Positions 31,598-40,921 of a stretch of 64,000 nt of DNA are shown one piece after another. A program made the translations under genes and the position numbers. This DNA comes from Actinobacteria bacterium IMCC26256. GTDB lineage: Bacteria > Actinomycetota > Acidimicrobiia > IMCC26256. The stretch spans positions 868,001-932,000 of the forward strand of contig CP011489.1 of the NCBI GenBank assembly GCA_001023575.1, in the 5' to 3' direction. Each line of letters opens with the position of its first letter. Position 1 is the stretch's first letter. The notes beneath the pieces were generated by a model that did not search any database, was not told where the DNA came from, and was given only the letters and a program-made list of their open reading frames with translations.

Positions 31598-32059
31598 GTG
31601 AATAGAAGAGACCTAGTACTTGATGTTGCTGAGAGAACTGGCAGCGACCGTAAGACTGCAGATGCAGCGGTTTCAGCCGTTGTCGACTCAATTACAGCGG
31701 CAGTCGCCAAGGGCGACTCCGTATCAATCAGCGGCTTTGCAAAGTTCTACCGCCGCATGAAGCCAGCCACAAAGTCCCGCAAGGGAACGAACCCATTCAC
31801 GGGTGAGCCAATGACATTCCAGGCCAAGCCGGCCACGAAGACAGTCAAAGTCACACCGCTGAAGGCGTTCAAAGATGTAGTTGCTTCAGGGCGCGTTCCT
31901 GCAGCGAAGAAGGCAGCAGTCAAGAAGACAGCAGCCAAGAAGACAGCAGCGAAGAAGGCTCCTGCTCGTAAGACAGCGGCCAAGAAGGTTGTAAAGAAGG
32001 CTCCTGCTCGTAAGACAGCAGCGAAGAAGGTAGTGAAGAAAGCCGCAAAGCGTCGCTAG
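31598..32059 (+). CDS. HU-type nucleoid protein with lysine/alanine-rich tail
   Basis: The first ~90 residues form an HU/IHF domain (MNRRDLVLDVAERTG, GDSVSISGFAKFYRRMKPA, RKGTNPFTGEPMTF). The C-terminal ~60 residues are almost only Lys, Ala, Thr and Arg, in repeated units such as KKTAAKKAPARKTAAKK, like mycobacterial HupB and histone H1 tails; the DNA encoding it contains a direct repeat of about 40 bp. The protein should bind and compact DNA. GTG 31598 is preceded by GAGGAG. Two hairpins follow the stop. Confidence 0.93.
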   Translation: MNRRDLVLDVAERTGSDRKTADAAVSAVVDSITAAVAKGDSVSISGFAKFYRRMKPATKSRKGTNPFTGEPMTFQAKPATKTVKVTPLKAFKDVVASGRVPAAKKAAVKKTAAKKTAAKKAPARKTAAKKVVKKAPARKTAAKKVVKKAAKRR

Positions 32060-32066
32060 TAAGTAC

Positions 32067-36244: not shown

Positions 36245-37306
36245 ATGTCGAAGTTCAGAGCACTGCGTCTCCATCGATTAGGGGAGCCAGAGGAGGTACT
36301 GGGCCTTGAGTCGCTAGATCCACTTCTCCTTGGTGACGGTGGAGTCTCAATTGATGTAATGGCTGGGGCGCTTAATTTCTCTGATGTCTTGATGTGTCGT
36401 GGTGGGTATCAAGTGAAGCCCGCCCTTCCGTTTACTCCAGGGGTAGAGGTCTCAGGTGTTGTGACTCGGGTCGGTGAAGGAGTCTCTTCTGAGTTAGTAG
36501 GCGAGCGTGTTTTAGCTGTTCCGGACTCTGGTCTTGGGGGATTTGCTGAGGAGACAGTTGCACGCGTTTCACAGGTGTTCAGGATTCCTCCGGCGATGCC
36601 ATTTGAGGACGCCGCTGCACTACACGTCACATATCAAACTAGCCATCTAGCACTTCACCGCCGCGCCGCTATTCAGCCGGGAGAGACTCTGCTCGTGCAT
36701 GCAGGCGCAGGAGGTGTCGGCACCGCTGCGATTCAACTTGGAATTGCAGCGGGGGCGCGAGTATTTGCGACGGCAGGTGGCAAAGAGAAGGTTGACCTAT
36801 GTCGATCGCTTGGAGCCGAGTTAGTCATTGATTATTTAAGCGATGATTTTGTTGAGGTTGTAAAGGAAGCCACTGGCGGGCGGGGCGCAGATGTGATCTT
36901 CGATCCTGTCGGTGGAGATACGTTTGACCGGTCTAGAAAATGTATTGCGTTCGAGGGTCGCCTCTTGGTAATCGGATTCACGAGCGGACGAATCCCGGAG
37001 GCTCCCGCTAACCATGCTCTTGTTAAGAATTACTCGATTCTGGGTGTTCATTGGGGGCTCTACAACACAAAGAACCCAGCGCTGGTTCACGAAATTCATA
37101 GAAGCCTGATAGGCCTTTATGAGGCTGGCGCAATTAGGCCCCTGATCTCAGAGGTCGTGGAGTTGAGTGAGGTGCCGGCCGCTTTGGGGCGTCTTGCTGA
37201 TCGCAGAACCACCGGAAAAATCGTCTGGTCAAGGGCCCCTGCCCCCGATAACGGCCGCGTTCGGGAACCGGTTCGCCAAGAGACCCCTCCATCGGGCACC
37301 ATTTGA
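36245..37306 (+). CDS. NADPH:quinone oxidoreductase-like (zinc-free MDR family)
   Basis: A 353-aa medium-chain reductase. The N-terminal catalytic domain (GALNFSDVLMCRGGY, PFTPGVEVSG) lacks the structural zinc cysteines, and the Rossmann domain has the NADPH motif HAGAGGVGTAAIQLG followed by VFATAGGKEK. This is the quinone-reductase or enoyl-reductase-like branch. TAGTAT lies exactly 7 nt before the ATG, consistent with a leaderless mRNA. The end of the protein is followed closely by the TnpB-like fragment gene on the same strand. Confidence 0.88.
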   Translation: MSKFRALRLHRLGEPEEVLGLESLDPLLLGDGGVSIDVMAGALNFSDVLMCRGGYQVKPALPFTPGVEVSGVVTRVGEGVSSELVGERVLAVPDSGLGGFAEETVARVSQVFRIPPAMPFEDAAALHVTYQTSHLALHRRAAIQPGETLLVHAGAGGVGTAAIQLGIAAGARVFATAGGKEKVDLCRSLGAELVIDYLSDDFVEVVKEATGGRGADVIFDPVGGDTFDRSRKCIAFEGRLLVIGFTSGRIPEAPANHALVKNYSILGVHWGLYNTKNPALVHEIHRSLIGLYEAGAIRPLISEVVELSEVPAALGRLADRRTTGKIVWSRAPAPDNGRVREPVRQETPPSGTI

Positions 37307-37313
37307 CGCTCCT

Positions 37314-37775
37314 ATGACAGACACGACTGCACAACTCATCCCCGACTCCGACCAGCACGATCTCCTAATGGCGACATTGGAGCGCGTGAATAAGGCCTGT
37401 AATGCTGCGCGGGTTCGTGCTCTTGATGACTCTGTTAAATCTGGGCCGGCACTCCGATCGATAGTTCTAGAGGAGCTCGAGCGATTTCGACTCCCCGCTA
37501 CATTCAATGTTCCTTCAACGGTTCGTGTCACGCAGTCGTTGACTCGTCAGAAGTTCGGCAATTATCAGTCAATAACATTCTCTGCTGCCGCCCTCAAGTG
37601 GTCTGGAACCGATCGGGTCAGTATTCCTACCTCTGCTGGTCGAAGAACTATTCGCGTCTATGTAGATCGCGCGCATGGGTCTCTGAAGCATCCTCTCGAG
37701 GGCAAGTCGGCATCCTTAGTTCTGCGTAGTGACGAGTTCGTACTTGTTGACGCGACAATCACAGACGAGGACTGA
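37314..37775 (+). CDS. TnpB/OrfB N-terminal-half-like protein without RuvC domain
   Basis: The 153-aa product resembles only the N-terminal half of one IS605-type TnpB family. I match QLIPDSDQHDLLMATLERVN to its opening helix, the ERFRLPATF region to its glycine-Leu helical (REC-like) part, and SAAALKWSG, RVSIPTSAGRR and the closing SASLVLRSDEFVLV to its beta-barrel (WED). The reading frame is intact, has a normal stop, and nothing downstream looks like the RuvC nuclease half or the zinc ribbon. So it is either a clean truncation or a domesticated RNA/DNA-binding domain. The similarity is from memory and needs a profile search. A histidine phosphatase starts 7 nt later. Confidence 0.5.
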   Translation: MTDTTAQLIPDSDQHDLLMATLERVNKACNAARVRALDDSVKSGPALRSIVLEELERFRLPATFNVPSTVRVTQSLTRQKFGNYQSITFSAAALKWSGTDRVSIPTSAGRRTIRVYVDRAHGSLKHPLEGKSASLVLRSDEFVLVDATITDED

Positions 37776-37782
37776 ATCGCCC

Positions 37783-38379
37783 GTGGGTTCGTTGCTAGTA
37801 GCCCGACACGGGCAATCGACCTGGAACGCTCAGGGGAGATGGCAGGGGAAGGCTGACCCAGAGCTAACCGAACTCGGCGAGCAGCAGGCTCAAGATGCAG
37901 CACTGCACATAGGCGACATCTCAAGTGTCTGGGCATCGAATCTCCAGCGCGCAAGAGTGACGGCATCCATTATCGCCAAGGCGAAGGGTCTCGAGGTAAA
38001 TATCGATGAACGCCTCTCCGAGCGTGATGCCGGCGAGTGGGAGGGGATGACTCGTCTTGAGATTGAAGACGGGTGGCCTGGCTATCTCGCGGGGCATAAA
38101 CGCCCAAATGGTTTCGAGCCAGATGAATCGGTAGCGCAACGCGGAATTGAGGCGCTGACTGAGATTCTCGCTAATGGTGGCGATGGTCGCATTCTCGTGG
38201 TCAGTCATAGCGGGGTAGTTCGTGCGATTGAGCGCCATCTCGGCGTGGCGGCCGGTCAACTATCGAATCTTGGGGGTGTGGAGTTTCACCTCGATGCACT
38301 CGGGGAACTCACGATTGGGGAGAGGTTCATGCTCCTCGATGCTGCGAAAGTAGAGATAACCACCCCAAAGCAGATCTGA
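37783..38379 (+). CDS. histidine phosphatase (phosphoglycerate mutase-like)
   Basis: A 198-aa member of the histidine phosphatase superfamily. The catalytic RHGQSTWN motif (His9) is near the N-terminus, and the partner acid (ERDAGEWEGM) and the second histidine (VSHSGVVRAIE) are present. In size it fits the cobC/GpmB-like phosphatases and not the cofactor-dependent mutases. The GTG start 7 nt after the stop of the TnpB-like gene suggests coupled translation. Substrate unknown; a broad-specificity phosphatase is the safest reading. Confidence 0.85.
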   Translation: MGSLLVARHGQSTWNAQGRWQGKADPELTELGEQQAQDAALHIGDISSVWASNLQRARVTASIIAKAKGLEVNIDERLSERDAGEWEGMTRLEIEDGWPGYLAGHKRPNGFEPDESVAQRGIEALTEILANGGDGRILVVSHSGVVRAIERHLGVAAGQLSNLGGVEFHLDALGELTIGERFMLLDAAKVEITTPKQI

Positions 38380-38545
38380 CCCGACCTAATCGGATCTACA
38401 CGGTATGCAGAGCGGATACTCCAGATTGGGCTGCGCAAGAGGTGATAATCCTCCCGCTTTTGGGAATGTGCCACTCAAGCCCTAGAATCAAGTGCCCCCC
38501 TTTTGGGAATCACCTTCTTTAAGGGAACCGACCGAGAGTGAGCAC

Positions 38546-40921
38546 GTGACCGAAGACCCACGCCTTGCGGATCCTGAGTTTGCAGCAGAGCAGGAATTCC
38601 TTGATCGCGTCTACTCGCGCCTTGACGGTATGCGCAGGTCTGCGAGTCGAGTCGCTGAGGCCTACGACGAAGTAGGTCGCGGCGGTACACACCAAGCAAG
38701 GCTTGAGCGAGATATCGCTCTCGAGAATACGCATCGCAGGCTCGCGGTTCTTGATGTTGGGCAAGCCCCGCTTGCGTTCGGCCGAATAGATCGTGAGATA
38801 GGTGGGCGGCCACTTTATGTGGGGCGCCTCGCTGTTGATGACGACGAGGGCGATCCACTCGTGATCGACTGGCGTGCCCCGGTCGCAGAGCCCTTCTACA
38901 GGGCAACGCCGATAGACCCCATGGGGATTCTGCGCAGGAGACACCTTCTAACTAAGAACGGCCGCGAACTTGTTGGGCTCGATGACGAGGTATTCGATGC
39001 AACGCGTGCCGATGAGCTTGGGTTAATCGTCAAGGGAGAGGGCGCGCTCATGCGTGCTCTCGACCGCGAACGCACCGGGCGTATGGATGACATCGTCGCG
39101 ACTATCCAGGGAGAGCAGGATGCTGCTGTCCGAGCCGCGTTGGCTGGAGTTCTCGTCGTATCGGGTGGACCTGGCACTGGTAAGACTGCGGTGGCTCTTC
39201 ACCGCGCCGCTTACTTGCTATATACCTATCGCCACAGGCTTGCTTCGCAGGGAGTTCTTGTCGTTGGCCCGAGCTCAGTCTTCCTTCGCTATATAGAGCA
39301 GGTGCTGCCATCGCTTGGGGAGCACGAGGTGCAGCTCGCCACAATCGGCGGATTGAAGCCGAGCCTTCGCCTTGAGCAAGAGGAGTCCTACGAGGCATCG
39401 GCGCTCAAGGGTGATCAGCGAATGGCTCAGGTGCTCGCACGCGCTCTACGCGATCGTGAGCGTGCTCCAAGGAGCGACACGCTTATGACCATCGATGGTC
39501 TGCGCCTTGTTATCAGGCGCGGCAAAGTTGCGGCAATCCTCGATCGCATTCGGAGAAGGCGCGGAGCGCATAATGCAAAACGTCTAGCGGTGGAGCGTTC
39601 AATTATGGACAACCTCTACGCTCGTTACCGCACAGCCTTGATAGCGGCCCACGATGGTGTAATGAGCCATGACGACTCGGATCTTGATGACGACTCTGGG
39701 CATGATGCTGCGATCGCTGCGGCGCTAGCGCGCGGCGAGGCTGCTCCTAGAGAGTGGGAGAGCAATATACGGCGCCGCATTCGACGCCTTCCAGAGGTAC
39801 GAATGCTTCTGGACCGCATCTGGCCCGTGATTACTGGCGCAGAGTTGGTTCACGATCTCTTTTCATTTGAGCCCTTGGTGCGCTCGGCTGGAGATGGAGT
39901 ACTGACCGAGCACGAGCAGTCACTCCTTCTGCGGGATCGCTCTATCAATCTGCGTGCAGTGCTCTGGAGTGAAGCCGATGTTGCACTAGTCGATGAGGCC
40001 GATTCTTTGGTCGGCCCAGTTGAGTTGGCATTTCCTCGCATCTCGCGGAGGCGAGGCGCAGAGGATCGCGAGATGCTCGAGGCCGCTACAACCGTGATCT
40101 CAGAGCACGGATTGGACAACTACACGAACGCGGCAGACGTCGTAGCGCGATATCGAGGTGACGGAGACTCCGGGGGAGTGATCGAGGTGCCAGAGTTGAG
40201 GACCTTTGGGCATGTAATTGTCGATGAGGCTCAAGATCTCACACCAATGCAGTGGCGCATGCTCGCTCGTCGCGCTCCAAATGGATCGATGACGCTGGTC
40301 GGAGATTTTGGGCAGGCAAGCCGCGCGGGTGCTGCAAGTGGATGGGAAGCGGTATTGAAGTTGCTAGTGCAGCGCGAGGAGTCGCGCCTTGTAACGCTCT
40401 CTGTTAATTACCGAACCCCGGCTGAGATTATGGAGCTAGCGAATCGCTTGCTTGCAGTAGTTGCACCAGACGTTAAGCCAACTAGAGCAGTGCGCTCGAG
40501 CGGAGAGAATCCGCGAATTATTAGCACCCAAGATGTCTTTGCTGATGCCGTTGCAGAGACTCGCGTCGCTGCGGCACGCGGCGGGAGTGTTGCGGTGATT
40601 GCGCCGCGGGCGATGCGTGCAGATCTTGCAGATGCTTTGAGCGACCTTGGTGCCGTTGCAGATGTTCCTGAGGTACTCGATGCGCCAATCGCAATCGTGA
40701 GCCCAACCGCCGCCAAGGGTCTTGAGTTCGATCATGTTGTAGTCGTTGAGCCCGCAGATCTGGTGGGGGCGGATCTCTCAGGGCTGCGCCTTCTCTATGT
40801 GACTCTGAGTCGTGCCACTCGTTCACTTACTGTGCTCCACGCCAAGGCACTCCCAGATGCGCTCGCCGTATCAGCTGGTCCTAGTCCGTCATCCGTAGCA
40901 TCATCACTATCTAATTCGTAG
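38546..40921 (+). CDS. HelD-like UvrD/Rep-family ATPase (RNA polymerase-associated type)
   Basis: A 791-aa superfamily 1 ATPase. The N-terminal portion is HelD-like (DRVYSRLD, then VIDWRAPVAEPFYRAT), followed by Walker A VSGGPGTGKTAVALHRAAYLLY split by a large insertion, Walker B VDEAQDLTPMQWRML, NYRTPAEI, SPTAAKGLEFDHVVVV and LYVTLSRATRSLTVL. HelD proteins displace stalled RNA polymerase; the actinobacterial HelR branch protects against rifampicin. A TAGAAT at 38483-38488 places the transcript start near 38495, so I use GTG 38546 and not an earlier in-frame GTG at 38492. A direct repeat CTTTTGGGAAT at 38456 and 38500 brackets the promoter. Confidence 0.85.
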   Translation: MTEDPRLADPEFAAEQEFLDRVYSRLDGMRRSASRVAEAYDEVGRGGTHQARLERDIALENTHRRLAVLDVGQAPLAFGRIDREIGGRPLYVGRLAVDDDEGDPLVIDWRAPVAEPFYRATPIDPMGILRRRHLLTKNGRELVGLDDEVFDATRADELGLIVKGEGALMRALDRERTGRMDDIVATIQGEQDAAVRAALAGVLVVSGGPGTGKTAVALHRAAYLLYTYRHRLASQGVLVVGPSSVFLRYIEQVLPSLGEHEVQLATIGGLKPSLRLEQEESYEASALKGDQRMAQVLARALRDRERAPRSDTLMTIDGLRLVIRRGKVAAILDRIRRRRGAHNAKRLAVERSIMDNLYARYRTALIAAHDGVMSHDDSDLDDDSGHDAAIAAALARGEAAPREWESNIRRRIRRLPEVRMLLDRIWPVITGAELVHDLFSFEPLVRSAGDGVLTEHEQSLLLRDRSINLRAVLWSEADVALVDEADSLVGPVELAFPRISRRRGAEDREMLEAATTVISEHGLDNYTNAADVVARYRGDGDSGGVIEVPELRTFGHVIVDEAQDLTPMQWRMLARRAPNGSMTLVGDFGQASRAGAASGWEAVLKLLVQREESRLVTLSVNYRTPAEIMELANRLLAVVAPDVKPTRAVRSSGENPRIISTQDVFADAVAETRVAAARGGSVAVIAPRAMRADLADALSDLGAVADVPEVLDAPIAIVSPTAAKGLEFDHVVVVEPADLVGADLSGLRLLYVTLSRATRSLTVLHAKALPDALAVSAGPSPSSVASSLSNS

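Follow-up and report, generated by a model that had tools for sequence, protein, structure and literature searches.

TnpB proteins of IS200/IS605 and IS607 elements combine WED, REC and RuvC domains. In ISDra2 TnpB, the WED domain comprises residues 1-12 and 117-176, the REC domain residues 13-116, and the RuvC domain starts at residue 185 (PMC10097598). The known derivatives of TnpB, including Cas12, Fanzor, TldR and the inactive Cas12m and Cas12k, all keep the RuvC fold. Work on their classification relies largely on profiles and trees of the RuvC domain (PMC12669027). Descendants that have no RuvC domain would be easily overlooked. The DNA analyzed here (the window) is a stretch of 64,000 nucleotides from Actinobacteria bacterium IMCC26256 (contig CP011489.1, 868,001 to 932,000), and all positions refer to it. 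One of its genes, the subject of this study, encodes a stand-alone WED+REC half (the REC lobe) of TnpB. A piece of the RNA-guided DNA cutter that is ancestral to CRISPR-Cas12 thereby seems to have acquired a new use in the host.

The open reading frame is intact, running from ATG to TGA over 153 codons, with the clean end reported for it in the first-pass annotation. The AlphaFold2 (AF2) model of the product, based on an alignment of eight close relatives (A1), has a mean predicted local distance difference test (pLDDT) score of 86. It contains a β-strand and three helices, followed by a β-barrel. A Foldseek search of the Protein Data Bank (PDB) finds ISDra2 TnpB as the first four matches (8h1j, with an E value of 1.8e-3, and 8ex9, 8exa and 8bf8; probability 1.00). 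Cas12k (7pla), mimivirus Fanzor2 (9b0l) and TranC (9jfo) come next, so that the first seven matches are all TnpB or its relatives. ISFba1 TnpB and Cas12m are found at lower ranks, and nothing else of weight. In a further alignment (A3), the stand-alone proteins stop immediately ahead of GVDLGI, the RuvC-I motif of TnpB, which together with the domain limits of ISDra2 TnpB identifies the protein as the REC lobe. This lobe consists of a WED domain with an OB fold, into which the helical bundle of REC is inserted. The barrel motif LRPPLEGRPxxLVxRNGEF corresponds to the TnpB motif hRPLxGkxkxvTVrr.

As the best Foldseek E value is only of this size, evidence was also sought in the sequence. Scans with the window protein alone against Pfam, NCBIfam and the PDB gave no match, and a PHROGs scan with the close-relative set gave only a weak, unnamed family; a profile built from relatives was therefore needed. 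Since it falls outside all curated Pfam and NCBIfam models, the protein would normally be annotated as a hypothetical protein. It also has no match among the PADLOC models of known anti-phage defense proteins, and a reading as a defense system was dropped. A profile of 26 stand-alone members only (A2) was searched over 396 genomes of the phylum. It matches three long frames (L062, L063 and L064) with E values of 5e-11, 7e-11 and 2e-7. These are full TnpB proteins of 373-388 aa, with RuvC (PF01385) and the TNB zinc finger (PF07282); PF01385 in L064 is slightly below the cut-off, and all three are above the NF040570 cut-off for TnpB. Comparison of the family profile with TnpB N-terminal halves by hhalign gives a probability of 95.5% (E value 1.5e-8), and a BLASTP comparison of one member (L015) with L062 gives an E value of 9e-7. 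In searches of PDB sequences, the eight-member profile found no link and the 26-member profile found chance myoglobin matches only. The link to TnpB rests on the whole-genome profile search, the structure and hhalign, and these bear out the proposal of the first-pass annotation that the frame encodes a WED/REC-like half.

The RuvC half, already reported as missing after this frame, is also missing from its surroundings. It has no match in the 22 loci examined, up to 20 kb each, and neither PF01385 nor PF07282 matches anywhere in the genome that holds the window. A split TnpB with its RuvC half encoded in trans was rejected on the latter ground. Compared with the TnpB RNA-guided endonucleases as a class, the protein has the WED and REC domains and lacks the RuvC D-E-D triad and the TNB zinc finger.

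The gene is carried by freshwater bacteria (Acidimicrobiia). It is present as one copy each in 29 of the 58 genomes of the order, representing 8 of 18 families (f1, f4 and so on below), and among 394 genomes of the class the matches are confined to this order. The members are about 147-173 aa long. In the tree, the members from f1, f4, f9, f12 and f17 form clades that follow the host family, and TnpB lies outside; the branch of f6 is long and its position unsure. The ratio of nonsynonymous to synonymous substitution rates (dN/dS) is 0.02-0.21 for the pairs that could be computed. The stand-alone half has no match in 50,697 phage records or viral contigs. Only two plasmid records are matched by the window protein, both annotated as TnpB, the better one with an E value of 4e-5 and 90% of the query aligned. 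As there is no phage, viral or close plasmid match, an origin as recent cargo of a phage or plasmid was rejected. With strong purifying selection, vertical inheritance, a single copy and no mobile-element context, this is a domesticated host gene that is being maintained. The computations leave very little doubt about its descent, architecture, vertical inheritance and selection. Two metagenome-assembled genome records titled 'Bifidobacterium breve' (CAMBEL010000011.1, L007; CAMDSG010000197.1, L012) are near-identical to the Acidimicrobiia loci L008 and the window, and their titles look wrong.

Features of the TnpB-half locus in the window.
Feature	Position	Strand	Basis and remarks
Stand-alone TnpB WED+REC half (153 aa)	37314..37775	+	Open reading frame, fold, profiles, alignment; founding member here of the RuvC-less family
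WED strand β1, residues 5-9	37326..37340	+	DSSP on the AF2 model
REC insertion, helices 12-38, 45-57 and 62-77	37347..37544	+	AF2 model; T21, R24 and N26 invariant in 26 members
Rest of the WED barrel, residues 81-146	37554..37751	+	AF2 model, alignments; F81, Q85, W96, T106, G109, R111, G122, P127, G130 and L144 invariant
CACCAT, putative promoter -10-like hexamer	37297..37302	+	17 nt before the start codon
Histidine phosphatase, branch 1 (198 aa)	37783..38379	+	PF00300, E value 1.5e-41; GTG start; 7 nt downstream of the TnpB half

The residues that read the transposon-associated motif (TAM) in ISDra2 TnpB are Y52, S56, K76, F77, Q80, T123 and N124 (PMC10097598). The equivalent positions appear not to be conserved in the family, although the mapping is approximate because the alignment with ISDra2 TnpB is only about 15% identical. 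The REC helix of residues 62-77, which matches the TAM-facing helix of TnpB, is the least conserved helix (0.54), and the start of β2 is also poorly conserved. The most conserved segment is in the WED domain (residues 125-146, 0.76), which contains the barrel motif. Q85, W96, R24, P127 and G122 do not vary within the family but mostly differ in the TnpB proteins L062, L063 and L064.

RNA guidance and TAM binding, as suggested for this half in the first-pass annotation, find no support at the locus. No Rfam family matches it at an E value of 1. Among close f17 genomes, the coding sequence is mostly 86-98% identical per 50-nt window, and the 50 nt after the stop codon fall to 10-28%. Together with the 7-nt gap to the next coding sequence, these results led us to reject an omega-RNA in cis, and judging from the sequence one in the usual place is very unlikely.

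The gene is separated by 7 nt from the neighboring coding sequence on both sides. The upstream neighbor is a zinc-type alcohol dehydrogenase gene with its stop at 37306, and an oligopeptidase F gene is found downstream in addition to the phosphatase and HelD genes. A gene for a HelD/HelR-like RNA polymerase recycling ATPase (38492-40921) adjoins the phosphatase gene (NF041258, E value 1e-131, below the curated cut-off). For the comparison among families, only neighbors read by sequence or located with the phosphatase and HelD proteins were used. The TnpB half, the phosphatase and HelD are found together in five of the eight families (f1, f8, f9, f12 and f13). The TnpB half has no adjacent phosphatase in f17, f4 and f6, and phosphatase and HelD occur without it in f5 and f16. 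In f17 the next genes encode short-chain dehydrogenases or other proteins, and in f4 the gene lies between those for HU and an acyl-CoA dehydrogenase. The coupling to a histidine phosphatase proposed in the first-pass annotation therefore stands as adjacency in those five families, whereas an obligate host operon does not; an obligate two-gene system was rejected as a general rule, and the shared neighborhood is an inherited position. A gene for an HU-type nucleoid protein (about 31598-32060, 5.7 kb upstream in the window; also in L113) precedes the TnpB half by 4-6 kb in f1, f8, f9 and f13, and lies directly upstream of it in f4.

Most members have a [TC]AnnnT hexamer (mostly TAC[GC]AT or CACNAT) at about -12 to -18 and no Shine-Dalgarno sequence, which suggests a leaderless mRNA from the gene's own promoter. 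The stretch directly before the start codon, 'ATCGGGCACCAT' / 'GTCGGTACGATG', is conserved (37291-37302 in the window; upstream in L001-L038). It is probably the -10 element of such a promoter, and it could be an operator.

We favor, at a probability of about 0.5, an ancient, vertically inherited domestication of a RuvC-less TnpB whose product would most likely bind nucleic acids without a guide RNA. Early in the history of this order, an IS605/IS607-type tnpB would have been stripped of its nuclease half. The host would then have taken over the lobe that was left, which binds nucleic acids, and would express it from the gene's own, probably leaderless, promoter. The protein would most likely be a small accessory or regulatory protein that binds RNA or duplex DNA, and would not need a dedicated omega-RNA. 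Its working surface may be formed by the LRPPLEGRP sheet of the WED domain and the T21/R24/N26 face of the first REC helix, instead of the former TAM-reading helix. Several observations weigh against this reading. The argument for nucleic-acid binding comes from the ancestry and the basic isoelectric point (median pI 9.7 in the family). The net charge, on the other hand, has a median of +4 and is +1 for the window protein, as compared to +10 to +23 in five of six TnpB N-terminal halves and +3 in the sixth, so the protein may now bind other proteins instead. Most omega-RNA contacts of TnpB are shared with RuvC and are thus absent in a stand-alone half (PMC10097598). In addition, no recurrent partner gene common to all families was found.

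The low net charge of the window protein would also suit a regulatory or protein-binding subunit, such as one belonging to the histidine phosphatase next to it or to the transcription machinery (HelD/HelR-like neighbor), and so would the gene order in the five families. Such a role is unlikely, as the pairing is obligate in neither direction: the phosphatase-HelD pair exists without the TnpB half, and the TnpB half also sits beside short-chain dehydrogenase genes or between those for HU and the acyl-CoA dehydrogenase. The alternative given in the first-pass annotation, a decaying remnant of an IS605/IS607 insertion, agrees with the descent from TnpB and with the lack of a curated family. It is nevertheless extremely improbable, being contradicted by the intact frame, the conserved length, the low dN/dS, the vertical inheritance across eight families and the lack of RuvC remnants in related loci. 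No broken frame and no RuvC remnants were seen nearby (insertion sequence ends were not specifically searched). A truly broken TnpB-like piece elsewhere (L066, G564:C1:2384833-2385045), an example of plain decay, has three internal stops.

The remaining alternatives retain a function close to that of TnpB. The protein could still be RNA-guided, as a TldR-like regulator with a guide RNA encoded in trans. In TnpB, the WED and REC domains grip the TAM duplex together with part of the pseudoknot of the omega-RNA (PMC10097598), the WED motif near this surface is the best-conserved part of the protein, and TldRs are examples of guided regulators that can persist after nuclease loss (PMC13418256). 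However, the protein lacks the RuvC fold, which provides much of the contact with omega-RNA, no RNA is found in cis and the TAM-reading positions appear not to be conserved, which makes this reading decidedly unlikely. A truncated TnpB might instead act as a transposon restriction factor that shields the genome through binding to omega-RNA, to TAM sites or, as a dominant negative, to TnpB itself, in the manner of truncated transposases in other elements. Among the 58 genomes of the order, the TNB domain is found in none of the 29 with the TnpB half, as compared to 9 of the 29 without it (Fisher test, p = 0.002 by genome and 0.045 by family; p = 0.004 without G025, whose match is weak). Within f6, the carrier G011 has no TnpB with TNB or RuvC, whereas the non-carrier G012 has two. 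This exclusion fits a protective role, and it fits rarity plus shared descent too. TnpB is in any case uncommon in the class, where 12 of 149 genomes have it, the genomes are not independent and the test by family is marginal. Moreover, a TAM competitor should keep the TAM-reading residues, whose equivalents appear not to be conserved. A role in restriction is rather improbable. More broadly, a free-standing REC lobe that acts either as an RNA-binding or RNA-directed regulator with a trans RNA or as a host-encoded antagonist of TnpB/IS605 is a tentative possibility. In either case this would, to our knowledge, be the first TnpB derivative of its class.

No description of a RuvC-less stand-alone TnpB half was found in the literature searched, which did not extend to two central papers, on TldR and on the diversity of TnpB. 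The family demonstrates that a REC lobe on its own can turn into a host protein with stable inheritance, and with its roughly 150 aa it provides a naturally occurring WED/REC module of very small size. It makes two questions testable: the role that the WED/REC lobe plays once RuvC is gone, and whether TnpB serves hosts as a source of factors against TnpB.

Truncated transposases can repress their own elements. The stand-alone half resembles them in being part of a mobile-element protein that the host has retained and in its anticorrelation with intact TnpB, but repression by it would be hypothetical. It shares WED/REC ancestry with the Cas12 effectors that have an inactive RuvC, for example Cas12m and Cas12k, the latter matched in Foldseek. 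Unlike the stand-alone half, these keep a RuvC fold and a CRISPR RNA. TldRs, the nuclease-dead TnpB-like repressors, are similar in their descent from TnpB, the loss of nuclease activity and the host, non-transposon neighbors (PMC13418256). They retain an inactivated RuvC domain and a guide RNA, whereas in the stand-alone half RuvC is absent and no guide was found in cis. Compared to TnpB itself (ISDra2, 8H1J and 8EXA, and especially the type of L062, L063 and L064), the stand-alone half has no RuvC, TNB zinc finger or C-terminal domain, is not in a transposon, has no omega-RNA-like element in view and appears not to have kept the TAM-reading positions. The succession of WED strand 1, REC helices and WED barrel is nevertheless identical across all 150 aa, and T21, N26, F81, V102, T106, G109 and G130 are shared with all or most TnpB proteins of that type.
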